Source of the DNA: a virus
Direction: 5' to 3' (one strand)
Virus record (IMG/VR): IMGVR_UViG_3300020419_000028
Location: 1 to 43,633 of that record
Length of the DNA: 43,633 nt
The notes under the pieces were generated by a model. It was not told the origin of the DNA and ran no database searches. It saw nothing but the letters and a program-made list of their open reading frames with translations. Made by a program: the position numbers and the translations under genes. Below are positions 1 to 32,262 of this stretch, piece after piece. Positions within the stretch are counted from its first letter, which is position 1, and every line of letters begins with the position of its first letter.

Positions 1-1392
1 GATCAAAAATTTATATTAGAGAACTCATTTATTGATACTGAGTCAATTAGAGTGTTTGTAAGAAAGGGTGGAGCATCATCTGGACTAGAATATTCAAGAA
101 TTGACAACATTACAAGTTTAGGTGCATCATCAAACATCTATTTGATACAAGAAATCAAAGATGAGAAGTATGAGTTGCTATTTGGTGATGGATTTTTCGG
201 TACAAAACTAGAAGATGGAGATATTATAGAAATAAGTTATATTATTACTGAAGGAAAAGCAGGTAACGATGGTAAATTCTTCTCATATAGTGCAGATGCG
301 GTAGATGATGCGGGTAATCCACTCGCTGCTAGTGCAACACCTGTTATAAACACCACTCAGAATGCAAAAGGTGGTGGTGATATTGAAACTATAGAGTCTA
401 TTAAGTATATTGCACCCAGAGTGTACTCATCACAGTACAGAGCAGTCACAACAAAGGATTACGAGGCAATAATACAAAGTGTATTTCCTGATGCAGAGTC
501 TGTTTCAGTGGTTGGCGGTGAAGAATTAGATCCACCTGAGTTTGGTACTGTTTTATTGAGTATAAAACCAAGAAATGCAACATTTTTATCTGATTTTACA
601 AAAACAAGAATCTTAGATGAGTTAAAGAGTTACTCCATAGCAGGAATTAACCAAAAAATAGTTGATCTTAAGATTCTATACATCGAACTTGACAGTGCAG
701 TCTATTATAATACAAATGTATACGATGAAACTGATACTTTAAAAGCACAAGTAACTCAATCGTTAACAAATTATGGAACTTCTACTAATTTAAACAGATT
801 TGGGGGAAGATTTAAGTATTCTGACTCTGTATCAGTTATTGATGAGACAAATAAAGCAATTACATCAAATATTACTAAAATTATAATGCGTAGAGACTTA
901 AAACCTGTCTTTAATTCGTTTGCTCAGTATGAATTATGCTATGGTAATCAATTCCATGTAAATAAAGATGGTAAAAACATCAAAAGTACAGGATTTACAA
1001 TTTCTGGTCGATCTGATACACTTTACTTTACAGATATTCCAAATCCAGACTTAAAAACAGGTCAATTAGCAGTTATTCAATTAGCAGAGGTTGCAGCAGA
1101 CTCATCTGCTGTTGTTCTTCCATCTGCAGGAACAGTAGATTATGTAAAAGGTGAAATAATTATCAATACACTGAATATCACTAGCACAACACTTGGAAAT
1201 GGGTTGATTGAGATTCAAGCATTCCCAGAATCTAATGATATCATAGGTTTGAAGGATTTGTACCTTCAATTGGACATGTCAAATACTAAGATAAATATGG
1301 TCAGAGATACAATATCTTCTGGACAGCAAATATCTGGAATTGGATATAGAACAACCTCTAGTTACTCAAATGGTACTTTAATTAGGTCATAA
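1..1392 (+). CDS. gp6: Baseplate wedge protein gp6 (partial, C-terminal part)
   Basis: The reading frame is open from base 1, so this is the 3' part of a gene that begins upstream; about 463 residues are visible. In the T4 baseplate gp6 forms the ring of wedge dimers that joins the wedge to the tube and controls the switch from hexagon to star. The visible part contains a YELLFGDGFFG...LEDGD stretch near residues 55-75 and then the segment IKYIAPRVYSSQYRAVTTKDYEA (shortened here to its ends, near residues 136-160). Both are typical of gp6/baseplate-J-type proteins. The C-terminal 150 residues are beta-rich. It stops five bases before the next gene, which fits the T4 order 6-7-8. Identification is firm from motif and position. 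A GTG at 52 is in frame but is internal to the gene, not its start. Confidence 0.88.
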   Translation, partial: DQKFILENSFIDTESIRVFVRKGGASSGLEYSRIDNITSLGASSNIYLIQEIKDEKYELLFGDGFFGTKLEDGDIIEISYIITEGKAGNDGKFFSYSADAVDDAGNPLAASATPVINTTQNAKGGGDIETIESIKYIAPRVYSSQYRAVTTKDYEAIIQSVFPDAESVSVVGGEELDPPEFGTVLLSIKPRNATFLSDFTKTRILDELKSYSIAGINQKIVDLKILYIELDSAVYYNTNVYDETDTLKAQVTQSLTNYGTSTNLNRFGGRFKYSDSVSVIDETNKAITSNITKIIMRRDLKPVFNSFAQYELCYGNQFHVNKDGKNIKSTGFTISGRSDTLYFTDIPNPDLKTGQLAVIQLAEVAADSSAVVLPSAGTVDYVKGEIIINTLNITSTTLGNGLIEIQAFPESNDIIGLKDLYLQLDMSNTKINMVRDTISSGQQISGIGYRTTSSYSNGTLIRS

Positions 1393-1397
1393 AACGA

Positions 1398-4300
1398 ATG
1401 ATAGAAACCTACAGTCCATTATCTTCTAGGGTTAAGACCTATCAAGTTGTTGGAGATCAAACTCCAGAGTTTGCAAAGGCAGAGAATCCACTATTAGAAG
1501 AATTTTTAAAGCAATATTACATATCACAAGAACATCAAGGTGGTTCTCTTGATATTGGGGAGAATATTGACAAATATATTAAGATTGATAATTTAACTAA
1601 AGAAGTTGTTGCAGGAATAGCAAGTATTTCATCTGGTATTGATTCTACAACTGATACTATAACAGTTTCTCCTAATACCAAAGGATTTCCACAAGAGTAT
1701 GGTCTTTTAAAGATTGATAATGAGATTATAACATATACAGGTGTAACTACTAATACATTTACAGGATGTACAAGAGGGTTTAGTGGTATCACAACATACC
1801 GTACTACCAATGACCCATACAATCTAACATATACAGATACTACACCTGCTAAACACGATTCTGGAGCAAGTATACAGAATTTAAGTGCATTATTCTTACA
1901 AGAGTTCTATACTAAGTTGAAAGCACAATACACACCTGGTCTAGAGGGTGTCACACTAAGTCCTGAGCTTAATGTTAACAACTTTATAAAAGAAGCAAGA
2001 AATTTATATGAATCTAAAGGTACTGATGAGTCATTTAAGATTTTATTCAAGGCATTATTTGGTTTAGAACCAAAAATCAACGATCTTGAGAAATATCTAA
2101 TAAAACCATCATTTGCCAACTACTTAAGAAGAGAATCTTTTGCTGTTAGGGTAATAGAAGGTGATCCACTTAAATTAATAGGTCAAACACTATACCAAGA
2201 TAATGAAATAGGTAATGACCTAGTAAATGCTGCGTCAGGACCTATTTCTGATGTTGTACAGATAAGAGATGACTATTATCGCATATCTGTGTTTATTGGT
2301 TTTGATGATAGAGACTTAATCGAAGGTAATTTTGTAATACCTGGCAAAACACAGTCAATAGGCACAATTGGAATCGGTGCAACAGTAATTACAGTTGATT
2401 CTACCATAGGATTTGGGCAAACAGGTACTTTCCAAGTTGGAGTGACTGATGACTCCTTTTATCAGACATTAGACTATTCAGAAAAGACTATAAACCAGTT
2501 TATCGGTGTTACAACTGCACTAAAAGAGATTCCATCAGCAACTGAATTATATGCACCTACTTTAGTCTATGGATTTGAAGATAACGACTTAAGTAAGAGA
2601 GTCAACATGAGATTGACTGGTGTAATTAGTAATTTTGAGTCTTTACAGAATTTATATGGACTAACTGAACAATCTAGGATACAAGTTAAGAATTTAGGTA
2701 GATATGTTAAGAATCCACCAACAGATAAAACATATTCGCAAGTATTTTTCAATTCTTGGGTTTATAACACTAGTGCAAGGTATGAAATAGAACAATTCTT
2801 TGGAACTACTTTTAGATTGAAGGGTAGGATTGATAAAGCAAGTATAAAGAAGAACGATACAGTAGAAATAGTCATCAGAAACACTCAGACGGTCGTTGCA
2901 ACGGGTTTAAATGTAAACTTCGTAAATACTGCACTAAATGAGGTAACTCTCTCAGGAACCATTACAGCTGCCTCTGGTATTAGCTATGATATAAGAAGAA
3001 TACAAGAAAAAGCAACAAGTACAGGAGTTCCCATCGTTGGTGGTCAAGATCAGATACTTGCAGATGTAACTAACGCATATATTCTTGATGCTAAGTATTC
3101 TCCTACTAATTTAAAGGAAGGTTATGTTGCATCTAACTCTATTCCTTCATATGACATTACAACTGAAAAAATAACCGCAACATTAACAGATCCAAAGATA
3201 GGAAACAATGATTTTGAAGGTTATGATGTATTAACCAATAGATACACAATTTTCTCATTTCCAAGCAGTGTACCTTTCAAAACTGGAGAAGAAATCTCAT
3301 ATGTCCCAAGAGGAGACACTACAGCAATCGGTGGACTAACTCAAGCATCATATTTTGTTGAAGTATTGTCACAAAACAATAAAATCAAATTATATCAGTC
3401 AAGATCGTTCATTCCTTCTGGAATAGCAGTTGGATTTGTTCCTACTGAGCTTCCTACAGGAATTCATGACTTTATTCGTGCAGAACAAGCAAGAGAGTCT
3501 ATTTTCCCTTCTGGAACACTTAAAAGGTTTATTTTAGATCAAAACCTTACTGATGGTACAAAACCAAAGACAACATCTGAATCAACACAAACTGGAACAA
3601 CAGGAATGTTGATTAATGGTGTTGAAATTACAAATTACAAATCTGACAAGTATATTTACTTCGGACCTGTAAGATCTTTTGATATAGTTAACGCAGGTAG
3701 AGGATATGATGTTTCATTCCCACCTTCAGTTGGTTTTGAGACTAGCACAAGTGGTATTAACACTGCTTATGGTAGAGTATCTGTTGCAGGTACTGTTACT
3801 GGTATTTTAGTAGATCCTGTTGAATATGAGATTAAAAATGTAGTATCTGTCGATGTTCATGGTGGAAATGGATCTGGAGCAAGAGCAGAGGCAATAACAG
3901 AACTGGCATATAGATCACTTACATTTAATGCTAAAAAATTTGCAATAGGTGGTAATATTGATGTTGGGTCTGACCGATTTATTTTAAATAAAGAGCATTT
4001 CTATAAAACAGGTGATAGAGTAATATACAATGCCAATAACAATAATCCAATAGCACTTTCTACTAGTACTGCTGTTGGTCTGGATACTGGTTTGGTAGAA
4101 GGTCAATCTTACTATGTTGGTGTTGCAGCAACTAATATATTCCAAATTTATACAAATAAGTCTGATGCAGTCGCAGGTGTTAATACAGTAAGTTTTGGTT
4201 CTACCGCAGGTGATTCAAATGTCGGTATTCATCAGTTTAATGATTATGAGACTAAACGAAGAATATCTAGAATTGCTGTAATTGATAGTGGATCAGGTTA

Positions 4301-7300
4301 TACAAATAGAAAAATATCAGTAAATCCAACAGGAACTATTGGTGGAATCAGCACTGTTAGAGATTTTATTGAGTTTCCTAATCATGGATTCAAAGATGGT
4401 GAGGTTATTCATTACAGTTCAGATGATACTGCAATAACTGGTTTATCTACAACTGCACAATACCAAGTATTAACAATAGATGATAATAGTTTTAGATTAT
4501 GTAATTCTGGTCTAGCAACTACAAGATTACCTGATCAAACAAATTATCTTAATAAGTTATACACTAGATTTGATTCTACTGGTTCTGGATATCAAAACTT
4601 CTTTTATCCTGCGGTAACTGTTGATATTAATGTTGTTACAAGTGATGATGCTAATAGAACCATAGAAGCATTCCCTATTGTCCGTGGTTCTGTTGTTGAT
4701 ACCATTCTTTATGATGAAGGTCGTGATTATGGATCTAATATAATCAATTTTGAAAAAACACCGATAGTAACTACAAATTATGGTGAGTTGGGTCAGATTG
4801 GACTAACTATTGTTAATGGTAGAATATCAGATGCTTTTGTTCAAGCAGCAGGTCAGAACTATGACGGTCCTCCTGATTTAGAAGTCATTGGAGTGGGAAC
4901 TGCAAATGGTGCTAGACTTCGTGCTGTAATGAACGGTGGATCTATTGATAAAGTCAAAGTTCTAGCAGCAGGTGTTGGATACGCATTATCAACAACAACA
5001 GTAACAGTTCTTGCACCAGGTAACGCTGCTACATTTGCAAGTAATATTAGAAGACTAACAGGTAATAAATTTAATACTAGTCAAACAACAAATGGTGATT
5101 ATCTAGGTGCAGTTGACGGTGGATTAGCGATAGAGAGTGTTGGATATGGTGAAACAGTTAGAACAGTATTTAATGATGATGGTACAGGTCACTCTCCTAT
5201 CATAGGTTGGGCATATGATGGAAACCCAATATACGGTCCTTTTGGATTTTCAGATAGAGACAACAATCAATCTGGATCTAGAAGAATGCTTTCTTCTTAC
5301 AAGTTAGATCAGTCTAGAGTTAAGAATAGACCAAACACCTCAGAATTTGTTGCAGGATATTTTACAGAAGATTATTACTATGATTCTAGTGGTGATTTAG
5401 ATGAACATAATGGTAGATTTTGTAAGACTCCTGAGTATACTCAAGGAATATATGCATACTTTGCAACTGTAGATAATTTAATTGCACCTCAGTTCCCATA
5501 TTACATTGGGCATACTTATAGAGGATTCCCAATAGAAGAGAATATACAAGTTGGTAGTAAGATAAAACAAAGTAATTTTAACTTTGAGAATTCAGAATTA
5601 GTTAGAAATACAAATCCATACAATATGTTTGGTAGTGGTGTATCTTACGATTATGTGGTTCAACCATACAAATCAATCAATAATGTTGCTTTCCCTGAGA
5701 GAATACTATCTGGATCAATAGACAATATTAAAATTGTCCAATCAGGCATAGGATATACTGTTGGTACACCATTAAATTTTGATAATTCGGATACTGGTGG
5801 AAGTAATGCATATGCAATTGTAAATAAAATTAATGGACAAGAAGTAAGTAAAATTAGTACTATTTTTAATAAATTTGAAGATATAATTTTCTCATGGGGT
5901 GGATCAGATAGAGTTATTGGTCATAGAAAACCATTCCATCAATTAAAGTCAAGTGACTATGTGCAGGTTTCTGGATTGTCCACTAGTATTATTGGATTAA
6001 CTGGATCGCATCAAATTAGTTTAGTTGACTATTCAACAACTTTACTCGATACTGGATTTGTTGGTGTTGTAACTGATATTAGAGTACAATCTATTTCTCC
6101 TACAGTTTCTGTAGGTGCTACCATTGGATTCTCTACACAAATATTTTCTGCAGGTATAGGAACAACTGTTGGTGTTGGATCAGAGACTGCACAAATTTTA
6201 AATATATTCCCTGATGATAATGTATTAAGAATTCGTAGATCAGGTGCAGCTGCAACTACAGGTATTCTTGGTATTGGAGTTTCTTTCTTCACAGATGAAA
6301 TTATAATTCCTTTGGCAGTTGAGTACTTTGAGTCTCAACCAAATAGAAAGATATACTTCAACCCAACAGAATCTGTTGGATTTGGTACTACAGTAAGTCA
6401 AACCATAACTAGATCTTATCAGTATATGGGTGTTACCAAAGATAGATCTTTATTAACAAAAACAATACACTTAGAAAATCATGGTTTACAAACTAATGAC
6501 GAACTGACTTTTTCTATCCCTACAAGCGGATCTAATATTTCCTGTGCTACTTCATCAATATATGCAGGTACATTTAATCTTCCATCAACAGTTTATGCAG
6601 TCAAAAAGACTGAAGATACAATTGGAATAAAAACAACTAAAACTTCTGCTGATTTAACCTTTATTAGTGGTGGATCTAATGTATATGATTATTTGTTTGA
6701 GAAAGTAGAACCAGTCAAAGTTACTGGTACAATTGAAAAAATTGCAACCACTGTTGAAACTACTGTTGACCATAGTTTAGAAGATGGTGATATAATTGAC
6801 TTAATTGTAAAACCAGGTCTTTCAACTGGTATTGGTACAACAACATATACTAAATTAAAAGTCATTGATGATTATTTAATTACCAATCCTCTTGAGATTG
6901 CTGCATCTGGAATAAGGACAGATACAAACAGAATTAGAGCAAATGATCATAGATTAGTCACAGGTGAGAGGATACTATACTATGGTGCGAATTTACCTGA
7001 TGGGATTGAACAAAAAGAATATTATGTTGTTAGAGTAGATGATAATACAATATCTCTTACAAATACTTTTGCAGAAACTGCAGGTGTACCTGTTCTTGTT
7101 AACATAACAAGTCAAGGTGGATCTGGTCAAACAATAAACCCAATAAATCCACAATTAAGACCTTTCAAGAATAATGATTTGGTCTTTGACATGAGTGATC
7201 CAAGTCTAACAGGTTATCAGTTAAAATTCTACTATGATACGAATTATTTCAATGAATTTGTTGGATCTGCCTCCAGTGAGACTTTTGAGGTTATTGGTGT

Positions 7301-10300
7301 AAGTACATTTGCAACTGTTGGTATTGGATCAACCATACCTACCTTTGATAATGTATTCCATCCAACTACAATTCTTAAATACTCAGATACTTCACCAGAA
7401 TTGATATTCTACAATGTATTTGGTACAAGTGGTGTAGCAACTACTAAAAACACTGGTGTAGTTAATCAAGGTCAGGTAAAATATGTTGATAGTGGATATG
7501 CAGGAAAATTTAATATTGTAGGTGTGTCAAACACTGAATTTAAGGTTAATCTAAGATTTCCTCCAGAGTCGTTACAGTATACTAGTGCTAATTGTGATAA
7601 CTTATCATATACAACACAATCACCAACTGCTAATGGTGGTATATCATCAATAACTATTCTTAACCGTGGAATAAATTATGAAAAAGTACCTGGCATTAGT
7701 AGTGTTGCAGGATCTGGTTCTAATGCTATATTGATAGTAGAATCAGTAGATATTAATAGATTATCCGAAGTAACTGTTCCTGATGATGTTTTTGGTTATC
7801 CATCTGATAATACATTAAAACCAGATGCTTTTATACCTAGAGTTCTTACTATTGCTGATTACTCAACTATAGTAGATGTCAGAGTATCTTTTGGTGGTAG
7901 AGCATATATTACTGCACCTCAACTTGTTATATTTGATAAAGGAACAGGGGAGGTTGTGGATAGTGGACTTATCACTTGCGATTTAAGTGACTCTGCTGTT
8001 ACTAGTGCAACTATTAGTGTGCCACCTTCGGGATTGTCTGAAAATGAATTTGGAGTAATACCTACAAGAAATAGTAATGGTATTGCGGTACTAGAGGCAT
8101 TTGCTGACGCAGGTATATTGACATGTAAGATATCTACTCCAATTCTAGGATATAAGAAGGAACCTATTGCAATTGGAGACTCTATATTCTTAGAAGGTAT
8201 TACATCTTATGATGGTACTGGATATAACTCTGCAGATTATAAATTTACTCCATTCAGAGTTAGTGACTATAACAACGCAACAAATCCAAGACAGGTTACT
8301 TTTGACTACACTGGTTTTACTACAAATCCAGGTATAGGTGTAACTGCAATATATGGTTTTGGTAATATAACAAAATTTGGCAATCTTGCAACATTTGAGG
8401 TTACTAAAGGATTCTCAACATTTGTAGAGAATGAGAAATTCAAGAGAAATACTAATCCTTTTGCTGATGTTAGATTAGACTTTGTAAATGTCAATACTGC
8501 CAATATCATTGTTAGTGGTGCTGAGGATTTAGAAGTTGGAGACATTTTAGTCGGTAAATTGAGTGGATCATCTGCTAGAATTACTGGAGTAGAAGAATTT
8601 GATGGTAATTTTAATATACAGGCATCTGTTAAGACAACAGTTGGTTGGAGAGATAATGTTGGATTAATTAATGATACAAACCAAGTCTTACCAGATAATG
8701 ACTATTATCAGAATTTGTCTTATGCTATAGAGAGTCCTAAAACATATGAAGACTTAATTACCTATGTTAATGATATTGTTCACCCAACAGGTCTTAAAAA
8801 CTTTGCTAATACTGAAATTATAACAGATGCAGCGTTACCAGGTTATAAGAGTGTGGGTGAAACCTTTACTCCTGCGGAAGATAAAGGTGGATTAGTATTA
8901 GACTTTATCAATGAACCACTTAGAGTTGATGCGATATATCCTGCCGATCTAGCAAGAGACTTCCAAGCACAGGGTAATATATCTAAATTTGTAGAACTTA
9001 GAAGCACTAGACTCGCTGATTTCATACTAAACAAAACTAATAGAGTTTTAAAGCATGATGATATTAGTCCTCAATTTGTGTCTAATGATTCTAACGATTT
9101 AAGTCCTTACAGAATTGTTGCTACTTATCCTGCTCCTAGAAAATTCCAAAGGTTCTTTACACAAACTGTTCATCAAGCAGAAGATCCTGCAAAGAATCAA
9201 TATCAATTAAATGAGTTTATTTCAGTAACCGTAGGTCAAGATACATTCCTATTACAAAAATATGAAGATAAAAACTATGATCAATTAGGTTTTACAACCA
9301 GTTATGTTCAGTTTGATACTAGCTATTCCTCTAATGCAACAGATTTAATAATTAGACCTAACGAACCATTCGATACTGATTATGAAGTTAAGACTTTCCA
9401 ATCAAACTTCTCCGATACTGTTGGAGTGGGAACCACTGCGTTTGGTCATATTAGATTAGAATCATCAGTTAGCACGGTAGGTGGAGCAAATACATTAGGA
9501 GTTGCTTTGACAACTAATGTTATTGGTGTTTCTACAATAACAACTGAAGCTGCAGTCATACAATTTGTAGTAAGTGACTTAACAACTAGTCAAGTTGACT
9601 TCTTTGAGTATGCTGCAATGCATAATGGTTCCGACACATATCTAACAGAATTAGCAGCATTTAACTCTAAACAAAATTTAAGTGGTTTATCATCACCTGA
9701 TTTTATCGGTACATTTAGTTCTTACATAGATGGCGGTCTATTAAAACTTGATTTCTTAAATGGAAGTCAGAATACAGTTGAGATAAAGTCTAAAATGATT
9801 GCTGTAGATCCTTCAGTGGTAGGACCTACAACAGATTACAGATTTAAGAATACCACATTTGACCCAGATGGAACTGAAAGAACTGCAAGATTAGAAGTTA
9901 CAAGTCAAGCAAAGGCAGGTATTGCTACTGTTTGTGGTATTGCTAGTATTAGAGATTTGTCTGTTAAATCCACAATTCATGTTGCAATTGGAGATACCCA
10001 GTCAATCCATTCAATTTACTTATTAACTGATCCATATAATCAACAAAACTTTATAACTGAGTATCCATTAGCATCTATTGGTGCTACAATGGGAATTGGT
10101 ACATTTGGATCTACATACAGACCTGATGGGCATATTAATCTTGAGTTCCATCCATCAGTTTCTGGTATAGTTAGTGTTAGTGCATATAATGAAATCTTAT
10201 ACAAAGACGAAGATCCTAATGGATTATTAGAAGGTATTGGTGAAATTAGTTATGGATCTGTTTTTGAGAATGTTGCACAAACCAAATACTTGGGAATAAA

Positions 10301-13300
10301 CAATAGAGATAGTAGAACATTTGCGATAAGGAATCAAGGTGTCCCAATATATGCACAAGAAACTAATATTGCTGATCCTAATGCTCTTGATAGAACCACA
10401 GGTACATTTAAACAAGAGCACTTCTTCTCTACTTTTGAGCAATTAATATACAAACCAGACTCAAATCTTATAGGTATTGGCGGTACTGCTCTTGTATATC
10501 AAACAGGTGCAGGTGTAACTGGATATCTTCCTGACCTTGTATTTGCAATAAAGGATAATGAAGAAGAATATAGAATAGCATTAACAAAAAATGACGCAAT
10601 AGCTGGTACAGCAGTAACATTCTTACCTGACTCAGGTGCAGGTAATAAGCATAGATTCTCAATGGCAAAGAGAGATTCTAAGTCAATGATAACTATTAGC
10701 GGTCTTGTTCAGAAACCAATAACTTATACATCGGTTAATTATGATTTACAAGTTCCTGTTGCAGGTTTTGTTACCGCATTTGTATTAAGTGGTATTGGAT
10801 CAATCTTATCTGGTGATCTTATTAGAATAGAAGATGAATATTCTATCGTAAGAAATGTTGGTGTAGGTACAACTAGTTTAGGTCCTGCGGTTGGTATAGG
10901 AACTTGGAGTCTAGTTGAAGTAGAAAGGGGTGCAGTTGGAACTGCTGCTACTCCACATGCTGCAGGAGAACCTGCTAGGATCTTTAGAGGATCATTCCAG
11001 ATATTAGATAGTAATATACACTTTACACAAGCACCTCTTGGTGGTGATTTGGGTTTACTTAATCCTGGCAACTTACCATATCCTAGAGCAACCTTTGGTG
11101 GAAGAACATTCTTAAGGCAAGATTATCTTAAGAATCAGTTATTTGATGATATATCAAATTCATTTGACGGATTAGAGACTACTTATTCATTAACCTCTGT
11201 AGGTGGAGCAGTTACTGGTATCGGTACTACAGGTGGTAACGGTGTATTATTCATCAATAATATATTCCAAGCACCATTTAGTGAAAATAATACTGATGCA
11301 AACTTTAAAATTATAGAAAATGCGGGAATTGCTTCAGTCCAATTTACTGGTGTTAGTTCGGAAGGATTTACGACACCGATAATAGACATTGGTGATGTCA
11401 ACGAGAACCAATTACCGAGAGGTGGAATTGTTATATCGGCAGGATCTACGCCAGGTAGAGGTTATGCTCCTTTTGTTGGTGCAAAAGTATTCCCTCAATT
11501 AGATTCTAGCGGTACTATTACTAATATTATTGGTATTCCTACCTCAGAAGGTACAGGATTCCAAATTAGCACCGCACAATATGATAATGTGACTGGTATA
11601 TTATCAGTAACTACCGCAACAAATCACGGTCTTACTATTGATGATCAAATAAAACTTGTTGGATTATACTTTACATGTCCTAAAGACGATGTAGGAACAC
11701 CCACAAACTTTGTGTACAATCCTGCAACTGGCATATCAACAGTTACTTTGAATAATCATGGATTGTCAAATGGTGATGCTATAAGTTTCAGAGCTAACTC
11801 ACTGACACTTAGTTGTACAATGGGAACTGGTAATAAGACATACCCTCGTCCAACTGATCCTCTTGCAGGTAATGGTCAGTATCTAACTGTCTCTAATGTC
11901 ACTACAAATACCTTTAGAGTCAATGTAGGTGCTGCAGGTAGTAATGTTTATTGGAATCCATCAGACGCAGACTATGATCCTAATGCAGGTATCATGACAG
12001 TAACGATAGGTACACATGATCTATATGTTGGTAAGGGAGTTGTAATTCCAGACAATACATTTACATTTACTTGTTTACAAGATGGTAACACTGCACAGAA
12101 AACATATCCTCGTGCAACTGATCCAGTATCGGGTGCATCTATTAATGTTGTCGCAGTTGGAACAGCAACCGCAAATATATCTACCGCAATTTATGATCCT
12201 ACAGCAGGTATTTTAACAGCAACATCTGCAGGTCATAACCTCATGGTAGGCAACAGAATACAAATTGCGGGAGATTCTCTAACATTTACATGCAGTAAAG
12301 ATAATAACGCAACTTATCACCCATATCCTAGATTAGGTGATCCAATAAGAGATAAGTGGGTTGCGGTAGCAAGTACAACACTCAATACATTCTCTATCAA
12401 TGTAGGATCCTCTAGTGGCATATATCCTCATTATGATGCAAGTGACCATTCATTATATTCTGTTGCTACAGGTGCACTAATAAAACAGACAGGAACGATT
12501 GATCTTAATGTTGGTACAGGTGGAACTGGAACATCTGCACATACATTTGTTTCTGCTGCTACAAGTTCTGTACAGTCTTTACCACAGTCAGCACATACAT
12601 TTGTAAGTGCAGTAACAAATGCGGTTCAAACTCTTAACTATGTTGGTGTTACAACTAACATATTCCCAGACTATGACCAATCCACAGACATAACGAATAT
12701 AGTATCACCTACAATATTCAATACTTTTGTAGGACCTAGTACAATACCTCACACATATAATGGTGGTGGGTCACCATATGCATTCAAGTATTTGGATGAT
12801 CTAACATTTGGTTCTGGTTATAATCAACTTTTAGGAACCGTATCTATTGGTGTTACAAATCCTGTTGGATCAGGAGCAACAATTACAGCAACTGTTGGTG
12901 CAGGTGGTTCATTAATCTTTAGTATTGATCATGCAGGAACAGGATATACTAGCGGAACACAATTATCTGCTCCTGATCCTAATGGTTCTAATTTAGGAAT
13001 ACAAGGTCTTTACAGACTAGGACTTGGCAATACTACAACTGCAGGTGTTGGTGCTTCTATTACTGTAGACATTATTGGAGTAAGCACAAATACAGGTGCA
13101 GGTTCTACACTATTTGAAGTTTCTAAATGGGAGTTTAGCAAACCTGGTTATGGATTCAAGATTGGTGATAAATTTACATTAGCTGGATTATCAACTGATC
13201 CTACTGCAGGTGATGACTTCTTACCGTTTGAAATAACAGTCTCTAATATCTTTAATGATGATATTTCTGCGTGGCAGTTTGGACAGTTAGATTACATTGA

Positions 13301-14612
13301 TAATATCAAACCATTCCAAAATGGAAGAGACAAGAGATTCCCACTTTATTATCAGAACCAGTTAGTTAGTTTTGAAAAAGATCTTGATGATCCACAATCT
13401 AGACTTATAGAATTAGATTCTGTTCTACTAATATTTGTAAATGGTGTACTTCAAGAACCTGGCATAAACTATGAGTTTGAAGGTGGAACATCCATATCAT
13501 TTGACTCTGCACCAACAGATGAAGATGATGTGTTTATATTCTTCTACAGAGGAACAGTTGGTCAAGATAGTTTCATATTTGATGTTAATGAAACTGTCAA
13601 AGAAGGTGATGTAATAGAATTATTCAAGAGTGCAGAAATTGAAAGAAACAATGTTGCTAAAGATACAACTAACTTTGCACAAAGGGATGAAAGAGTAATT
13701 CAAAGAATTGCAACAGCATCTATTGTTGAGACACCATTCTATCAAGGTAGTGGTGTTAATAATAATGAATTTAAACCTCTAAGATGGACTAAACAAAAAC
13801 AAGACATTGAATATGGTGGTGGATTAATTTCTAAAGCAAGGGATCAATATGAAGCACAAATAACACCTATTTGTAATGTACTAGCATCTATTGCTTCTAC
13901 TGATACATTCTTGTTTACTAATCACACAGAACGCTTTAGAGATATTGATGGTAACTTAGCAGATTCGTTTAGTTTATTTGTACATGCCTCTAATGTAGGA
14001 TTTGGAACTACTGCACAGGCAGGTGTCAACTATGAAGTTTGGGGTGACATTGATCCATTAAATACTGATGTTAAAGGATATACTGGTTTAATTACTGGTA
14101 TTACAACATCAGCAGGTATTGGAACTGATCTTGGTCTTGTATTACAATTAGATACTAACAATCTAGTTAATGAATTTAATGCTTCTTATGTACAAGATTT
14201 AGAAGCAGGTTATCCAATTCAAGTTTATGGATCTGGATTACAACCTGTTGCGGGTGTGATTACCAGTATTGATAGTCATGATTCCGATATAGTCGGTGTC
14301 AGCACCTTTGATGTGGACAATATATACTATGTCTCTGCTATATCTTGGGATGGTAGTTCTAGAACTGGTGTTGCTACATGCAATATACACTCTGGAACTG
14401 ATGTAAGTGGACTTGTAGGTGTTGGTTCAACACTACATCCTGCAGCAAGGTTAACATGGGGAAGATTCTCTTCCGCATTGAGAAGTGTAGCATATCCTCT
14501 TAACATCTCTGTTAAAGGTTTGAATTATAATCCAGACCTAGACGAATGGCCAACCGCCAAGCGTATGAATATTGGGTTGCGTAATACTGGAGCACTCGAT
14601 AAAACCTTATAA
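1398..14612 (+). CDS. gp7: Giant gp7-position baseplate wedge protein, 4404 residues
   Basis: Position between genes 6 and 8 and the N-terminal region (about residues 1-320, with a KGTDESFKILFKALFG segment near 210) support a gp7-type baseplate wedge subunit. T4 gp7 is about 1030 residues, so this is over four times longer. The extra length is a chain of modules. One (residues 75-166) carries an EIITYTG...TRG...H-x-SGASI pattern. Many G-x-GY/G-x-x-Y segments follow, as do several 'HGL..GD' segments. A YHYH-like domain covers about 1225-1376. Four related repeats cover about 3389-3675, each with a TC or SC and, in three, a YPR..DP. Two AHTFVSA copies follow. Near residue 4015 there is an IFVNGVLQEPG..Y segment. 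There is no signal peptide or membrane segment. The last codon and stop overlap a late-promoter-like octamer. Role in the wedge is inferred; the modules may be exposed and bind fibres, receptors or glycans. Confidence 0.75.
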   Translation: MIETYSPLSSRVKTYQVVGDQTPEFAKAENPLLEEFLKQYYISQEHQGGSLDIGENIDKYIKIDNLTKEVVAGIASISSGIDSTTDTITVSPNTKGFPQEYGLLKIDNEIITYTGVTTNTFTGCTRGFSGITTYRTTNDPYNLTYTDTTPAKHDSGASIQNLSALFLQEFYTKLKAQYTPGLEGVTLSPELNVNNFIKEARNLYESKGTDESFKILFKALFGLEPKINDLEKYLIKPSFANYLRRESFAVRVIEGDPLKLIGQTLYQDNEIGNDLVNAASGPISDVVQIRDDYYRISVFIGFDDRDLIEGNFVIPGKTQSIGTIGIGATVITVDSTIGFGQTGTFQVGVTDDSFYQTLDYSEKTINQFIGVTTALKEIPSATELYAPTLVYGFEDNDLSKRVNMRLTGVISNFESLQNLYGLTEQSRIQVKNLGRYVKNPPTDKTYSQVFFNSWVYNTSARYEIEQFFGTTFRLKGRIDKASIKKNDTVEIVIRNTQTVVATGLNVNFVNTALNEVTLSGTITAASGISYDIRRIQEKATSTGVPIVGGQDQILADVTNAYILDAKYSPTNLKEGYVASNSIPSYDITTEKITATLTDPKIGNNDFEGYDVLTNRYTIFSFPSSVPFKTGEEISYVPRGDTTAIGGLTQASYFVEVLSQNNKIKLYQSRSFIPSGIAVGFVPTELPTGIHDFIRAEQARESIFPSGTLKRFILDQNLTDGTKPKTTSESTQTGTTGMLINGVEITNYKSDKYIYFGPVRSFDIVNAGRGYDVSFPPSVGFETSTSGINTAYGRVSVAGTVTGILVDPVEYEIKNVVSVDVHGGNGSGARAEAITELAYRSLTFNAKKFAIGGNIDVGSDRFILNKEHFYKTGDRVIYNANNNNPIALSTSTAVGLDTGLVEGQSYYVGVAATNIFQIYTNKSDAVAGVNTVSFGSTAGDSNVGIHQFNDYETKRRISRIAVIDSGSGYTNRKISVNPTGTIGGISTVRDFIEFPNHGFKDGEVIHYSSDDTAITGLSTTAQYQVLTIDDNSFRLCNSGLATTRLPDQTNYLNKLYTRFDSTGSGYQNFFYPAVTVDINVVTSDDANRTIEAFPIVRGSVVDTILYDEGRDYGSNIINFEKTPIVTTNYGELGQIGLTIVNGRISDAFVQAAGQNYDGPPDLEVIGVGTANGARLRAVMNGGSIDKVKVLAAGVGYALSTTTVTVLAPGNAATFASNIRRLTGNKFNTSQTTNGDYLGAVDGGLAIESVGYGETVRTVFNDDGTGHSPIIGWAYDGNPIYGPFGFSDRDNNQSGSRRMLSSYKLDQSRVKNRPNTSEFVAGYFTEDYYYDSSGDLDEHNGRFCKTPEYTQGIYAYFATVDNLIAPQFPYYIGHTYRGFPIEENIQVGSKIKQSNFNFENSELVRNTNPYNMFGSGVSYDYVVQPYKSINNVAFPERILSGSIDNIKIVQSGIGYTVGTPLNFDNSDTGGSNAYAIVNKINGQEVSKISTIFNKFEDIIFSWGGSDRVIGHRKPFHQLKSSDYVQVSGLSTSIIGLTGSHQISLVDYSTTLLDTGFVGVVTDIRVQSISPTVSVGATIGFSTQIFSAGIGTTVGVGSETAQILNIFPDDNVLRIRRSGAAATTGILGIGVSFFTDEIIIPLAVEYFESQPNRKIYFNPTESVGFGTTVSQTITRSYQYMGVTKDRSLLTKTIHLENHGLQTNDELTFSIPTSGSNISCATSSIYAGTFNLPSTVYAVKKTEDTIGIKTTKTSADLTFISGGSNVYDYLFEKVEPVKVTGTIEKIATTVETTVDHSLEDGDIIDLIVKPGLSTGIGTTTYTKLKVIDDYLITNPLEIAASGIRTDTNRIRANDHRLVTGERILYYGANLPDGIEQKEYYVVRVDDNTISLTNTFAETAGVPVLVNITSQGGSGQTINPINPQLRPFKNNDLVFDMSDPSLTGYQLKFYYDTNYFNEFVGSASSETFEVIGVSTFATVGIGSTIPTFDNVFHPTTILKYSDTSPELIFYNVFGTSGVATTKNTGVVNQGQVKYVDSGYAGKFNIVGVSNTEFKVNLRFPPESLQYTSANCDNLSYTTQSPTANGGISSITILNRGINYEKVPGISSVAGSGSNAILIVESVDINRLSEVTVPDDVFGYPSDNTLKPDAFIPRVLTIADYSTIVDVRVSFGGRAYITAPQLVIFDKGTGEVVDSGLITCDLSDSAVTSATISVPPSGLSENEFGVIPTRNSNGIAVLEAFADAGILTCKISTPILGYKKEPIAIGDSIFLEGITSYDGTGYNSADYKFTPFRVSDYNNATNPRQVTFDYTGFTTNPGIGVTAIYGFGNITKFGNLATFEVTKGFSTFVENEKFKRNTNPFADVRLDFVNVNTANIIVSGAEDLEVGDILVGKLSGSSARITGVEEFDGNFNIQASVKTTVGWRDNVGLINDTNQVLPDNDYYQNLSYAIESPKTYEDLITYVNDIVHPTGLKNFANTEIITDAALPGYKSVGETFTPAEDKGGLVLDFINEPLRVDAIYPADLARDFQAQGNISKFVELRSTRLADFILNKTNRVLKHDDISPQFVSNDSNDLSPYRIVATYPAPRKFQRFFTQTVHQAEDPAKNQYQLNEFISVTVGQDTFLLQKYEDKNYDQLGFTTSYVQFDTSYSSNATDLIIRPNEPFDTDYEVKTFQSNFSDTVGVGTTAFGHIRLESSVSTVGGANTLGVALTTNVIGVSTITTEAAVIQFVVSDLTTSQVDFFEYAAMHNGSDTYLTELAAFNSKQNLSGLSSPDFIGTFSSYIDGGLLKLDFLNGSQNTVEIKSKMIAVDPSVVGPTTDYRFKNTTFDPDGTERTARLEVTSQAKAGIATVCGIASIRDLSVKSTIHVAIGDTQSIHSIYLLTDPYNQQNFITEYPLASIGATMGIGTFGSTYRPDGHINLEFHPSVSGIVSVSAYNEILYKDEDPNGLLEGIGEISYGSVFENVAQTKYLGINNRDSRTFAIRNQGVPIYAQETNIADPNALDRTTGTFKQEHFFSTFEQLIYKPDSNLIGIGGTALVYQTGAGVTGYLPDLVFAIKDNEEEYRIALTKNDAIAGTAVTFLPDSGAGNKHRFSMAKRDSKSMITISGLVQKPITYTSVNYDLQVPVAGFVTAFVLSGIGSILSGDLIRIEDEYSIVRNVGVGTTSLGPAVGIGTWSLVEVERGAVGTAATPHAAGEPARIFRGSFQILDSNIHFTQAPLGGDLGLLNPGNLPYPRATFGGRTFLRQDYLKNQLFDDISNSFDGLETTYSLTSVGGAVTGIGTTGGNGVLFINNIFQAPFSENNTDANFKIIENAGIASVQFTGVSSEGFTTPIIDIGDVNENQLPRGGIVISAGSTPGRGYAPFVGAKVFPQLDSSGTITNIIGIPTSEGTGFQISTAQYDNVTGILSVTTATNHGLTIDDQIKLVGLYFTCPKDDVGTPTNFVYNPATGISTVTLNNHGLSNGDAISFRANSLTLSCTMGTGNKTYPRPTDPLAGNGQYLTVSNVTTNTFRVNVGAAGSNVYWNPSDADYDPNAGIMTVTIGTHDLYVGKGVVIPDNTFTFTCLQDGNTAQKTYPRATDPVSGASINVVAVGTATANISTAIYDPTAGILTATSAGHNLMVGNRIQIAGDSLTFTCSKDNNATYHPYPRLGDPIRDKWVAVASTTLNTFSINVGSSSGIYPHYDASDHSLYSVATGALIKQTGTIDLNVGTGGTGTSAHTFVSAATSSVQSLPQSAHTFVSAVTNAVQTLNYVGVTTNIFPDYDQSTDITNIVSPTIFNTFVGPSTIPHTYNGGGSPYAFKYLDDLTFGSGYNQLLGTVSIGVTNPVGSGATITATVGAGGSLIFSIDHAGTGYTSGTQLSAPDPNGSNLGIQGLYRLGLGNTTTAGVGASITVDIIGVSTNTGAGSTLFEVSKWEFSKPGYGFKIGDKFTLAGLSTDPTAGDDFLPFEITVSNIFNDDISAWQFGQLDYIDNIKPFQNGRDKRFPLYYQNQLVSFEKDLDDPQSRLIELDSVLLIFVNGVLQEPGINYEFEGGTSISFDSAPTDEDDVFIFFYRGTVGQDSFIFDVNETVKEGDVIELFKSAEIERNNVAKDTTNFAQRDERVIQRIATASIVETPFYQGSGVNNNEFKPLRWTKQKQDIEYGGGLISKARDQYEAQITPICNVLASIASTDTFLFTNHTERFRDIDGNLADSFSLFVHASNVGFGTTAQAGVNYEVWGDIDPLNTDVKGYTGLITGITTSAGIGTDLGLVLQLDTNNLVNEFNASYVQDLEAGYPIQVYGSGLQPVAGVITSIDSHDSDIVGVSTFDVDNIYYVSAISWDGSSRTGVATCNIHSGTDVSGLVGVGSTLHPAARLTWGRFSSALRSVAYPLNISVKGLNYNPDLDEWPTAKRMNIGLRNTGALDKTL
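5130..5525 (+). other. YHYH-like domain within the giant gp7
   Basis: Residues about 1245-1376 of the giant protein contain, in order, GWAYDGNPIYGPFGF (1270-1284), LDEHNGRF near 1333 and, 25 to 40 residues later, YAYF followed by FPYYIGHTYRG. I recognise this order from YHYH-family domains, whose name comes from a Tyr-His-Tyr-His motif before the FPY..G segment. Here that motif reads YAYF, so both histidines are replaced, although the DGxPIYG core is kept. The domain may be structural here, with no metal- or ligand-binding role. The family assignment is from memory of the motif pattern. Confidence 0.6.
11560..12420 (+). repeat. Four divergent tandem repeats in gp7 (60-85 residues each)
   Basis: Each unit begins with a pattern like YD/NP..GI.TVT....H.L..GD.I and reaches a short beta strand ending in FTC or LSC. 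Units two to four continue with YPR..DP and a strand such as TFRVNVG. The H-L-x-x-G-D part resembles segments elsewhere in the same protein (for example near nucleotides 4380, 6480 and 6770). The DNA copies have diverged well, so the array is old or under diversifying change. One conserved cysteine per unit is unusual in an otherwise Cys-poor virion protein. Confidence 0.7.
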
Positions 14613-14615
14613 ATA
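14608..14615 (+). promoter_or_regulatory. Late promoter, exact TATAAATA octamer upstream of gene 8
   Basis: The octamer TATAAATA, the consensus -10 element of T4 late promoters, ends 35 bases before the ATG of gene 8. It overlaps the last sense codon and the TAA of the giant gene upstream. A T-rich stretch follows at about 14631-14640. No -35 element is expected for this class. It lies in one of the few short gaps of the window, which makes a chance match less likely. Exact matches inside AT-rich coding sequence would be expected a few times in 43 kb. Confidence 0.65.
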
Positions 14616-14650: not shown

Positions 14651-16228
14651 ATGGCAGCAATTATAACCGATCAATTTAGGATTATCAACGCTAATAACTT
14701 CATGGATGATGTTACGAGTGGGGATAACTCTTACTATGCTTTTCTTGGATTAGCAAATCCTACAGTATCGGGATTCGGAAGAACAGATACTTGGAATAGT
14801 ACTACTGTTCAACCACCATCACCTGTCGATAGTATCAATTATAATAATCATGTGTATGATACTATGTTATTTGGAAGAAAGATATTTCCTGGCGATGTAA
14901 GAAGATTAATTAGAAAAGTAAATTGGACAAAAGGTACATCATATGACATGTACCGTCATGATTATAGCACAACTAACCGTTCTTTGGTTTCCAACTCTAG
15001 TAGATTATATTCATCAAGTTATTATGTTATGAACAAAGACTACAGAGTCTATGTTTGTATTAATAATGGATCTGCAGGTATAACTACAATTGCTAGTGCA
15101 TCATTAGATGAACCAGGTTTTACAGACCTAGAACCATCCTCTGCAGGTGTAAGTGGTGATGGTTACCTTTGGAAATATATGTTTACAGTTCCTCCTGCGG
15201 ACATTGTAAAATTTGATTCTACTGAATATGTTGCTGTTCCTAATGATTGGGAAACAACTACTAATGCAGATGTGAAAGTTGTTAGAGATAATGGAGATTC
15301 AACTGTCAACAATAACCAGATAAAGGTTGTATCTATAGATGATCCTGGTAGAGGATATAATTTTCTTTCTAGTCCTATAGAAGTTGATATACTAGGCGAT
15401 GGTACTGGAGGAAAAGTAAGAATCTTAACTAATACAACAGGTGAGATTATTCAAGCACAAGTAACGCAAGGAGGGCAAGGTTATAGTTATGGCCGTGTTG
15501 ATTTATCTTCTATTAATAGTACTGTTTCGACTAATGGTAGGTTCGCCAAACTAAGTCCCATAATACCACCAACTTTAGGGCATGGATTTAATGCTTATAA
15601 AGAATTGGGAACTGATAAGGTTTTGATATACACTAGATTTGATGCATCTTCTTATGATTTTGTACCTGATACAATATTTGGTCAGGTTGGATTAGTTAGA
15701 AATCCTCAAGCAGTTGGTGCTTCTGGAACTACCTTCCTACAAACATCAGAATTTTCTGCACTAAAATCTATTAAATTTACTGGAGACACTTCACAGTCTC
15801 TTGGTATTGGCACAGTTATAGAACAAAATATAACTGGTGTAGGAACTGCTAGAGGTTATGTTGCATCTTATGATCTTGATACTCAGGTAATTAAGTATTT
15901 CCAAGATAGAACATTATCATTTACAAATAAGTATGATCCGACTGATAGTGCAGATGTTGCTAATCAAACTCCAGTCTTAGAATTTACATCAACTGCAAAT
16001 GCTGTTACCAGTACCGCATTTAGTGTTAATGTAGATACAACCTTTAGTGGCATATCCACTGTAACCCCTGCAGGTAAGACTGTTGACTTAGGAGTTCAGT
16101 TTACAAATGGACTTGCCGATGCTGAGATAAATAAACGCAGTGGAGATTTAATTTATCTTGACAACAGACCCTCTATTACAAGAAATGAGCGTCAAAAAGA
16201 AGACATTAAAATCGTATTAGAGTTCTAA
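14651..16228 (+). CDS. gp8: Baseplate wedge protein gp8
   Basis: 525 residues against 334 for T4 gp8. The N-terminal 200 residues follow the gp8 pattern: an early F-R-I...NNF segment, a FGRTDTWN segment and PPSPVDS, as in T4 gp8. Further on come FGRKIFPGDVRRLI and a W-T-K-G-T-x-Y-D-M-Y strand. gp8 is a dimeric wedge protein linking gp7 to gp10 and gp6. The extra length comes largely from an inserted beta region around residues 225-300 with two G-R-GY / G-Q-GY units (DDPGRGYNF and TQGGQGYSYG). The same unit occurs in gp7 and gp14. A late promoter precedes the gene, and the next gene starts four bases after its stop. Confidence 0.85.
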   Translation: MAAIITDQFRIINANNFMDDVTSGDNSYYAFLGLANPTVSGFGRTDTWNSTTVQPPSPVDSINYNNHVYDTMLFGRKIFPGDVRRLIRKVNWTKGTSYDMYRHDYSTTNRSLVSNSSRLYSSSYYVMNKDYRVYVCINNGSAGITTIASASLDEPGFTDLEPSSAGVSGDGYLWKYMFTVPPADIVKFDSTEYVAVPNDWETTTNADVKVVRDNGDSTVNNNQIKVVSIDDPGRGYNFLSSPIEVDILGDGTGGKVRILTNTTGEIIQAQVTQGGQGYSYGRVDLSSINSTVSTNGRFAKLSPIIPPTLGHGFNAYKELGTDKVLIYTRFDASSYDFVPDTIFGQVGLVRNPQAVGASGTTFLQTSEFSALKSIKFTGDTSQSLGIGTVIEQNITGVGTARGYVASYDLDTQVIKYFQDRTLSFTNKYDPTDSADVANQTPVLEFTSTANAVTSTAFSVNVDTTFSGISTVTPAGKTVDLGVQFTNGLADAEINKRSGDLIYLDNRPSITRNERQKEDIKIVLEF

Positions 16229-16232
16229 AAAG

Positions 16233-19200
16233 ATGCCACAACAGACCAATCTAAACATAAGTCCTTATTACGACGACTTTGACAGAACCAAGAATTTTCA
16301 TAGAGTTCTTTTTAAACCAGGTTTTCCAGTACAGGCTCGTGAACTTACAACCATGCAGTCTATTCTGCAAAATCAGGTTGAACAGTTTGGTAGTCATATA
16401 TTTAAAGAAGGATCTGTTGTAGTACCTGGCGGTATTACTTTTGATCCAGAATATTTTGCAGTTCAATTAGATGGAACTCACTTAGGAACTGATGTTGAAG
16501 TATATTTGAGTGCACTTAAAGGTAAAAAAATAAAAGGTCAAACTTCTGGTGTAGTAGCAAAAGTAGTAAACTGTATAACCTCATCCATATCTACTAATAA
16601 CAATCCAACAATATTTGTAAAATATATTTCACCAGGTCCCAGTGGAGCTTTCGATCTCTTTAGTAATTCTGAATTACTTATACTACAAGATTCAGTAACT
16701 TATGGTAACACAACATTAAATATAGGATCTTCAATAGCATCAACTATTGCTGTAGATGCATCTTTAACAGGATCAGCAGCTAGTATAGCAAGTGGTGTTT
16801 ACTTTGTAAGAGGTACTTTTGTTAGAGTTAACGAACAAACACTTATATTAGATCAATATACAAATGATAGCACATATAGAGTAGGTTTGCAAGTTGTTGA
16901 ATCAGAGATTGCTGCAAAAGAAGATACCAGTTTATATGATAATGCGAAAGGATTTTCCAACTTTGCTGCACCAGGTGCTGATAGATTAAAAATAGAATTA
17001 ATTCTTAGCAAAAAACCAATAACTGATTTTGATGATACTGATTTTATAGAAGTTGTTAGAGTCAGAGAAGGAACTATTGAAAAGGAAAATAATAATAATT
17101 CTCAATACAATATAATTTTAGACTATCTTGCAAAAAGAACACATGATGAGTCTGGGGACTATGCACTAAAACCATTTATAGTTGATGTTCAAGAAAGTTT
17201 AAATGATCGTCAAGGAAGTGGTGGTGTTTATTTCGAGAACGAAACCACAAGAGAGGGAAGAGAACCAGAAGAAGAATTAACTGCTATAAAAATATCACCA
17301 GGTACTGCATATGTAAAAGGTTATGAATATTCCACACAGGGAGAAATTATTGATTGTCCTAAAGCAAGATTGTTGCAAGATGAATTTATCGAAGAATCTT
17401 TCACATTTAGATTAGGTAATAAACTAATAGTACAAGATGTCAAGGGTGCTCCTATACAAGGAGATAGTGTTAATTTACGAAGTGGTATTAGTAGTTCTAT
17501 TGTTGGAACTGCAAAGGTATATAATTTTGCATTGTCAGATTCAAAGTATAAGGATAAATCAACTGAGTTTGATTTACATTTATTTGATGTACAATTACGC
17601 AATGATCTCCAATTAAATGAATATGTTACATGGCCAAGATCAATTACTGTTGAAGGTGCTGAGAGTGGTGCTAGAGGTATTAGTGTTGCAGCAGGAACTG
17701 CCAGTAGTACAATAACAGTAGAGGGTGTGTCTGGTAGATTTTTAGACGGAGAACAACTTATATTTACTAATGATTATAACTTACAGAGATCAATACAAAA
17801 AGTAGTAAGATATGATATTAATGATGTAGAGAATATAGGAGATACTGGTAATACTTTCTACTCTAAGAAAAAATTATTCAATGTATTACCTCTAGGATTT
17901 GATAAGACTGATCTTGTACAAATTGCCACTAATGGAACTGTCACATGTCCTGGCAAAACATTTGAAATATTTAAACCCAATCAAATTATAACATATACCG
18001 TAGCTGGTGAAACTTTACCTCAACGAAATGTTGTTACTGAAGTTAATGCAGATGGTACTAACATGAAACTAGCTGCAACGACAGGAGTAGCAAATATATT
18101 TCTAGGAGGTTTACCATCTAGTACATATACAGGTGCGATATTCTTAGGTCAACAACAATTAACTTCTGAAAATAATTCTGGTTTATATCTTCCATTTCCT
18201 AAAAGCAATATCGGTGAAGTAGATCTTACTGAAGCAGAACTATTATTAAGTGATCAAGTCACTTCTGAATCCACAGATGCTAATGGAGTTTTAGTTGTAA
18301 ATACTAGTGCACTAAGTCTTAATGATGTTACTTTTGCAGCATTTGATCAAGAAAGATATAAGGTAACTTATAGTGATGGAACAATTGCAATAATAGACGA
18401 TTCTCAAGTTGTCATAACAAGTGACACATTAACAATCAATAACTTACAATTTAGTGAGACTAGTATAAAGGTTGATGTAACTGTTATCAAGAGTAATATA
18501 AGAAGTAAAGTAAAAGAATTTAAGAAAAGTCAGTCAGTTAATATAACAAGATCTTCTAATGCTGCAACTGGTAATGCTGTTAACATTGGTCTTAATGATG
18601 GATTAACAGAATCAGCATTATATGGTTTAAGAGTGCAAGATGCGGATATATCTTTAAATTGTCCTGATGTAGTAAATGTTGTTTGTGTTTACGAATCACT
18701 GGATGCAAATGCTCCAATATTTGATAAGTTGGCATTTACATCAACTGATCCTATTTTCCAAAATGCGATAGTAGGTGAAAATATAATAGGTGAAACATCT
18801 AATGCTGTTGCAAGAATAACAGAAGTTGATGTTGGTAATAGTAATATTAGTATCGTATATCAAACTGTTGATAAATTCAATCTTCTTGAAAATTTAACAT
18901 TTAGTGAATCTAACTCTACTGCAGTTCTACAAAATGTTATCAATGGTAAGTTTAAAAATATAACAAATGAATATGTTTTAGATAAAGGTCAAAAAGAACA
19001 GTATTATGGATATTCTTCTATAGTAAGACTTAATGATAACTATATTCCTACAAAACAAATTACAGTTATATTTGATAAGTATGATATACCATCTACAGAT
19101 ACTGGAGATGTATTTACTGTTGCTAGTTATGATCCAGAAAGATTTTCAAAAGATGTTCCCGATATAGGATTGTCTCAAACAAGAGCAACTGATACACTTG

Positions 19201-24299: not shown

Positions 24300-24511
24300 T
24301 GCCATCATTAAGAGTTGGTACTGGCAGCCAAGTAAAGGTAATTGCTAGTGGAGCATTAGGAGGCGGTGGAGGAGGTAAACTAGTTTTACTCTCTGATGTA
24401 AACGCTAATAATCTAGGTAACGGTAGTTTCCTAGTTTATGACTCAGCGTCTGCCAAATTTGTAGCACAAACAAATCTACCATCTGTAACTATTGATGGAG
24501 GGGAATACTAA
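24299..24511 (+). CDS. Gly-rich fibre-like small protein, 70 residues
   Basis: TAATG overlaps at both ends couple it to the Ig-like gene before and the long fibre gene after. Residues 18-27 are GALGGGGGGK. The second half, LLSDVNANNLGNGSFLVYDS followed by AKFVAQTNL, matches the short repeat often seen in the N-terminal part of marine phage tail fibres (L-x-D-V...L..G..LVYD...KFV). It may be a detached fibre segment or an adaptor. The purine-rich GGAGGGG at its end is a strong ribosome binding site for the next gene. Confidence 0.7.
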   Translation: MPSLRVGTGSQVKVIASGALGGGGGGKLVLLSDVNANNLGNGSFLVYDSASAKFVAQTNLPSVTIDGGEY

Positions 24512-31440: not shown

Positions 31441-32261
31441 TGGCAAAACCTAGTAGTAGAGTAACATTACAAGACTATGTTTTTAGACAACTTGGTGCTC
31501 CTGTATTGGAGGTCAATGTTGCTGATGAGCAGTTTGATGATTTACTAGATGACTCTCTACAATATTTTTATGAGAGACATTTTGATGGTGTAGAAAAAGT
31601 ACTGTTAAAATATAAATTAACAGAAGATGATATTAAAAGAGGTAGAGCTAGAGGTGGTACTAATACATTAGGTATTACAACTACAACAACTACATCTGGA
31701 GATTTTGAAGAGAACTCAAATTACTTGACAGTTCCTGATTCAATATTAGGTATAGAAAAGGTCATGAACTTTGATAGTAGTGGACTTAGTAATGGTATGT
31801 TTAATTTAAAATATCAATTGTTCTTAAATGATATTGCTTTCAATATGGGTTATGATGGTCTACTAAATTATTCAATGACTAAAACATATCTAGAAGATAT
31901 CAATTTCTTATTGACTACATCTACACAAATTAGATTTAATAAAAGAAATAATAAATTATATCTTGATATTGATTGGGCATCTGCAACAGTAAGTCATTTT
32001 GTATTGATAGAGTGTTACAGAATTATGGATCCTGCAAATAACATAGGAGTATATAACGACTCATTTTTAAAAAGATATGTTGTTGCAAAAACTAAAAAAC
32101 AATGGGGACAAAACCTCATAAAATACCAAGGAGTAAAACTACCTGGCGGGACTGAGTTAAATGGCAGACAAATTTATGAAGATGGTGATTTAGAGTTAAG
32201 AGAACTCGAAGCAAACATGCTATCTACTTACGAAGTTCCTGTTCTTGACATGATTGGTTGA
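31440..32261 (+). CDS. gp13: Neck protein gp13
   Basis: 273 residues; T4 gp13 is about 309. The N-terminus RVTLQDYVFRQLGAPVLEVN followed by FDDLLDDSLQYFYERHFDG is a firm signature of T4-like gp13. With gp14 it closes the filled head and forms the platform to which the tail joins. A TAATG overlap and a GGAGG motif in the end of the fibre gene set the start. It is followed after one base by the ATG of gene 14, as in T4. A run of Thr residues near position 80 (ITTTTTTSG) is a variable loop. Confidence 0.93.
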   Translation: MAKPSSRVTLQDYVFRQLGAPVLEVNVADEQFDDLLDDSLQYFYERHFDGVEKVLLKYKLTEDDIKRGRARGGTNTLGITTTTTTSGDFEENSNYLTVPDSILGIEKVMNFDSSGLSNGMFNLKYQLFLNDIAFNMGYDGLLNYSMTKTYLEDINFLLTTSTQIRFNKRNNKLYLDIDWASATVSHFVLIECYRIMDPANNIGVYNDSFLKRYVVAKTKKQWGQNLIKYQGVKLPGGTELNGRQIYEDGDLELRELEANMLSTYEVPVLDMIG

Positions 32262-32262
32262 T

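Follow-up and report, generated by a model that had tools for sequence, protein, structure and literature searches.

A giant baseplate wedge protein of a cyanophage as a gp7 with a probable split, expanded core

The 4404-residue protein encoded between genes 6 and 8 of a viral genome fragment (IMG/VR record IMGVR_UViG_3300020419_000028, 43,633 nucleotides, hereafter the window) is, as judged by sequence profiles, the gp7 of a Kyanoviridae cyanophage, and most probably (about 0.8) a gp7 whose core has been split in two and expanded by inserted beta modules. Its gene (Table 1) is a single frame with an ATG start and no internal stop, encodes a protein with a computed pI of 4.7, and, flanked by gp6 and gp8, sits in the T4 order 6-7-8. 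Length alone speaks for an assembly error that fused two genes. Such an error is nonetheless excluded for all practical purposes, because the complete gene recurs in four other IMG/VR contigs (4404, 4404, 4405, and 4403 residues at 99.95, 99.0, 94.6, and 90.5% identity, each copy joined from two pieces of one contig with identical 9.3-kb overlaps), and hundreds of relatives stand in annotated genomes. The intact frame of the original prediction is thus borne out. Compared with the 90.5% relative, there are 876 synonymous and 419 nonsynonymous codon differences, an excess that is the pattern expected for a constrained protein, and ~70 further relatives are colinear with the giant gp7 across nearly all covered sequence. 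A T4-type late-promoter motif, TATAAATA, overlies the gp7 stop; it occurs once in the window versus ~7 copies expected by chance, and a motif of this type also lies ahead of gp8 in P-SSM2, P-HM2, and HTVC008M.

Table 1. Features of the giant gp7 gene and its neighbors (positions in the window; residues of gp7)
Feature	Positions	Strand	Basis or comparison
gp6, 5′ end cut by window	1..1392	+	PHROG 219 E 7e-127
gp7, giant baseplate wedge protein, 4404 aa, 476 kDa	1398..14612	+	PHROG 2885 E=0 over residues 9-4183
Core segment A1, residues 10-60, QxPEFxxxENPxxxxFLKQYY helices; T4 gp7 ~643-690	1425..1577	+	HMM, hhalign
Insertion site 1, small beta module, residues 61-182	1578..1943	+	Not present in IME-SM1, X1 gp7
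Core segment A2, residues 183-320, FIKEARNLYESKGTDESFKILFKALF and strands after it; T4 gp7 727-821	1944..2357	+	hhalign
Insertion site 2, ~2070-residue beta-module chain within core, residues 321-2394	2358..8579	+	A2-B spacing among relatives
YHYH-family domain, degenerate, residues 1261-1360	5178..5477	+	Pfam PF14240 E 2.7e-26
Core segment B, residues ~2395-2480, NDYYQNLSYAIESPKTYEDLITYVNDIVHPTGLKNFANTEI; T4 gp7 865-889	8580..8837	+	HMM, profiles
Site 3, C-terminal extension, ~1920 residues, 2481-4404	8838..14609	+	Tail lengths among relatives
Three head-to-tail beta-module copies, residues ~3435-3743	11700..12626	+	Self-BLAST E to 1.7e-26
TATAAATA, T4-type late-promoter motif ahead of gp8	14608..14615	+	Sole exact copy in window
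gp8	14651..16228	+	PHROG 438 E 2e-146; Pfam Phage-Gp8 PF09215 E 6e-15

The gp7 identity is carried by profile comparisons. The original prediction had likened the first 320 residues to a wedge gp7, and the profile search it called for does find the relation: a profile of 31 N-termini aligned by hhalign with six T4-type gp7 proteins at Prob 95.9 and E 6e-9, pairing window residues 196-313 with T4 gp7 727-821. A family profile built from short, pelagiphage, and giant members, searched against 177,635 PDB sequences, returned two T4-type gp7 proteins as significant (E 4.3e-5 and 2.5e-4; the next match stood at 0.46), and the giants' N-terminus alone retrieved gp7 (E 0.022) as its sole match up to E 10. 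A PDB search with the whole protein as a single sequence found nothing. Structure prediction added little: the AlphaFold model of residues 1-434 was poor (pLDDT 66.8, pTM 0.39), that of the 503-residue IME-SM1 gp7 even more so (pTM 0.27), and a fold search with the former found nothing in the PDB at E<=0.001; a T4 baseplate chain (1004 residues) came only 22nd in rank, its score negligible.

Residues 1-320 correspond to T4 gp7 ~643-821. The N-terminus of the giant thus bears gp7 core as predicted, but core lies also near residue 2440, far outside the predicted boundary, and the accompanying claim of 4000 residues devoid of a T4 counterpart is inexact, as residues ~2443-2467 within core segment B align with T4 gp7 865-889. 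On its own, core B resembles T4 gp7 only weakly (a single comparison gives E 0.0025). In the whole-family PDB search, the T4 865-889 stretch aligned in order, as a second domain. When residues 321-4404 were compared with T4 gp7 in 80 overlapping pieces, the two core B pieces scored best (29.3 and 28.5, the next 21.9). Core B also matches the short gp7 proteins that form a bridge to T4 (IME-SM1 373-440, X1 373-439, HTVC008M 758-813). Segment A1 owes its T4 assignment to hhalign, which pairs the short X1 gp7 from residue 2 with T4 gp7 from 643; its HMM matches 10 of the 12 gp7-slot proteins and falls below threshold in T4 and MC09. With that exception, A1, A2, and B were found in T4 order in all 12 proteins checked, using HMMs built without S-SM1, P-TIM40, S-PM2, MC09, P-HM2, and T4, and with E-values that refer to the 12-sequence set. 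Conservation reaches 56-64% in core A and 54-56% in core B, with a further peak at residues 3000-3400. T4 gp7 (1032 residues) thus shares core A2, core B, and the gene order 6-7-8 with the window. It differs in that its core lies in the last third of the protein, preceded by ~640 residues of its own for which no counterpart was found in the window protein.

Comparison of the spacing between these segments indicates that gp7 has gained beta modules at three sites. At site 1, where the AlphaFold model shows beta strands with pLDDT mostly 55-85, A1 and A2 lie 18-30 residues apart in the shortest proteins, ~120 in most, and ~640 in S-SM1 and P-TIM40. At site 2, the A2-B spacing is 106 residues in T4, ~250 in X1 and IME-SM1, 525 in HTVC008M, 1586 in S-PM2, 1615 in MC09, 2149 in S-T4, 2163 in the window, 2211 in P-SSM2, 2337 in P-HM2, 2698 in S-SM1, and 2787 in P-TIM40. 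Beyond B, the tail (site 3) measures 50 residues in MC09, 59 in X1, 63 in IME-SM1, 143 in T4, 203 in HTVC008M, 1179 in S-PM2, 1803 in P-HM2, 1927 in the window, 2301 in S-T4, 2669 in P-SSM2, 2683 in S-SM1, and 3760 in P-TIM40. At sites 2 and 3, the 2163 and 1927 residues of the giant compare with 106 and 143 in T4. The sites vary independently, as exemplified by MC09, which combines a large site 2 with almost no tail.

Outside the core, G, S, T, N, V, and I make up ~50% of residues. Modules of gp7 recur elsewhere in the window, namely in gp8, VrlC, and the gp14-like neck protein. The beta module that the neck protein (32254-33708) shares with gp7 lies at its C-terminus and is also shared with baseplate and tail-lysozyme families, so that neck and baseplate have one module in common. 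The tandem copies in the tail coincide with the region where relatives' alignments break (breakpoints ~3430-3800). One domain of the site 2 chain invites a catalytic reading: the YHYH family, which it matches at the E-value of Table 1, is a predicted metal-dependent hydrolase whose histidine triad has been suggested to bind zinc (PMC7824862), and an arm bearing it might be an enzyme that cuts the host envelope. The triad, however, is not kept. In the window the namesake motif has become YAYF, the rows inspected show YAYF or YAYY in its place, the two other histidines are lost in some relatives, and across 63 aligned rows the histidines are replaced or variable. A zinc hydrolase was therefore rejected, the enzyme reading is highly unlikely, and a structural or binding role is the likelier one for this domain.

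The giant gp7 is already known as a kind, recorded in hundreds of marine phages. Its alignment to PHROG 2885 ("baseplate wedge subunit") is near full-length and colinear, running along profile positions 7-3889 of 4179, and the P-SSM2 member of that family carries a gp7 annotation. A search with residues 1-1334 yields 464 phage records, all at <60% identity and almost all from cyanophages; judged by gp7, terminase, and portal, the closest isolates belong to the Kyanoviridae, S-T4 among them (40.3, 78, and 74.5%). The protein right after gp6 has 498 residues in X1, 503 in IME-SM1, 1016 in HTVC008M, 1032 in T4, 1942 in MC09, 3048 in S-PM2, 3515 in S-RSM4, 3895 in S-SRM01, 4107 in DSL-LC03, 4156 in S-SM2, 4225 in ACG-2014f, 4337 in S-B43, 4404 in the window, 4454 in P-HM2, 4749 in S-T4, 5195 in P-SSM2, 6180 in S-SM1, 6817 in ACG-2014d, and 7351 in P-TIM40. 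With homologues in the gp7 slot spanning 498-7351 residues, the window protein is therefore ordinary in size, in mid-range, and any notion that it is exceptional for its kind falls to P-SSM2, S-SM1, and P-TIM40. An IMG/VR search with short gp7 queries returned almost only IME-SM1-like records. P-SSM2 gp7 (PSSM2_111, YP_214343) shares the gp6-gp8 slot, the core segments, and their order with the window, and its first 1330 residues are colinear at 38.6% identity; it is longer overall, with a site 3 tail longer by ~740 residues, and has diverged in sequence. In S-T4 (YP_009810955), the nearest isolate, the tail is ~370 residues longer. HTVC008M I899_gp055 likewise holds the three core segments between gp6 and gp8, but with a site 2 insert of 525 residues and a tail of 203. 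This gp7 orthologue (19452-22502 in the HTVC008M record) is annotated as head closure Hc2, probably because its beta modules are shared with the PHROG 460 family. In S-SM1 and P-TIM40, the gene next after the giant gp7 lacks a gp8 annotation; a gp7-gp8 fusion was rejected there, as the gp8 profile matches only shared beta modules.

According to a published account, pelagimyophages and cyanomyophages lack gp7 and have VrlC in its stead (PMC7029224), which would make the giant an unrelated structural protein. Consonant with that printed claim, a plain tblastn search with T4 gp7 listed no cyanophage among its commonest organisms. Against it stand the profile matches of the giant to T4-type gp7 and the genomic arrangement: each of the eight marine genomes searched encodes VrlC (PHROG 358) in a gene of its own, downstream of gp7, and each also holds the gp7 core segments. 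The published absence is contradicted by this co-occurrence, and substitution by VrlC is very improbable. In the VrlC-like protein of the window (PHROG 358, DUF4815; 16233-23564), a run of prolines leads into an arginine-rich stretch (RRNRWRRRIRRRGRNRGRRGRRGGR). Two other genes of the window merit mention. A 2309-residue fiber-like protein (24511-31440) bears many TDIVGTAATITTLDVETLDAKDVNITGLA-type repeats and a Laminin_G_3 lectin domain, and is a candidate receptor-binding protein. The tail sheath protein (39462-41843), at 793 residues, appears to carry a large insertion, as its match takes in just 454 PHROG 23 profile positions.

The original prediction went on to propose that the giant takes over the fiber-attachment functions of gp9, gp11, and gp12. 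The pattern of losses lends this some color: neither a gp9/gp10 N-domain nor gp11 was detected in P-SSM2, S-T4, P-HM2, S-PM2, MC09, or the window, and according to a review cyanomyoviruses lack g10, g11, and g12 (PMC2984593). For the window itself the absence says little, since it is a 43.6-kb fragment. Across nine marine records, admittedly few, a giant gp7 did not consistently go with loss of gp9 and gp11, nor a small one with their retention. The gp9/gp10 N-domain (PF07880) occurs in S-SM1 and P-TIM40, which have the largest gp7 proteins tested and carry the gp9/10-type gene shortly after gp7, and was not found in the seven others; these include HTVC008M, whose gp7 has 1016 residues and in which gp9 and gp11 both went undetected. 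Gp11 (PF08677) was found in T4 only and in none of the nine. Moreover, the S-CREM2 virion contains separate long- and short-fiber proteins (PMC10665884), and no part of the arms resembled gp9-gp12 in PHROG and Pfam scans. As the presence of gp9-type genes does not track gp7 size, specific replacement of these proteins is doubtful.

Homologues of the giant gp7 are virion components, as documented in print for S-SZBM1, S-SM1, and S-CREM2. Mass spectrometry detected S-SZBM1_208, 6619 residues, with 71 peptides and an emPAI of 0.41 (PMC9146016), a protein placed in the gp7 slot by its name and an adjoining 691-residue wedge subunit; S-SM1 T4-GC969, a giant homologue of 6180 residues (PMC3037559); and S-CREM2 ORF122, a shorter one of 1937 residues, with 91 peptides (PMC10665884). 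A further expectation, that gp7 holds most of the baseplate mass, is left unproven by these data: by published emPAI times mass, a crude measure, the S-SZBM1 homologue scores 297, about equal to the 277 of a 2446-residue neighbor. A chain of such length could also be a polyprotein that is cut into several virion proteins, and peptide coverage of just 13.5% (S-SZBM1) and 27% (S-CREM2) does not demonstrate the full-length product. Yet no processing site is known, and the core halves lie 2000 residues apart, so that cutting would separate them unless their association persists. Polyprotein processing is accordingly unlikely.

How such an expanded gp7 might work is suggested by its T4 and type VI counterparts. 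In T4, gp7 together with two gp6 constitutes the wedge core; in type VI secretion, TssG has a gp7-like fold and the same 2:1 partner ratio, and its loops exiting the core sheet each hold one receptor-binding-like TssK trimer (PMC6300606). By sequence, residues 1-320 and ~2395-2480 jointly make up the conserved gp7 core; as in T4, each of the six wedges would combine one such core with two gp6 chains. From the order of the segments, the chain would leave this core for a 2070-residue beta-module excursion, return to complete it, and then continue as a further beta chain of 1920 residues. In the most likely working, for and against which the odds seem about even, these two arms would radiate from each wedge as a peripheral baseplate layer that touches the host surface and holds neighboring structural proteins, in the way that TssG loops hold TssK. 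The TssG loops run to tens of residues, against thousands in these arms.

Together, the profiles identify the giant genes that follow gp6 in T4-like phages of marine origin as expanded gp7, against its published absence. The places where the extra mass enters gp7 are now located, and a baseplate map of any of these phages could directly test how the core carries thousands of extra residues. With roughly equal chances of being right or wrong, gp7 of marine T4-like phages can be regarded as an insertion platform, in which the chain exits at three fixed places for 100 to 2800 residues and re-enters, building a covalent outer baseplate layer that is 15-fold variable in size and may tune host contact.
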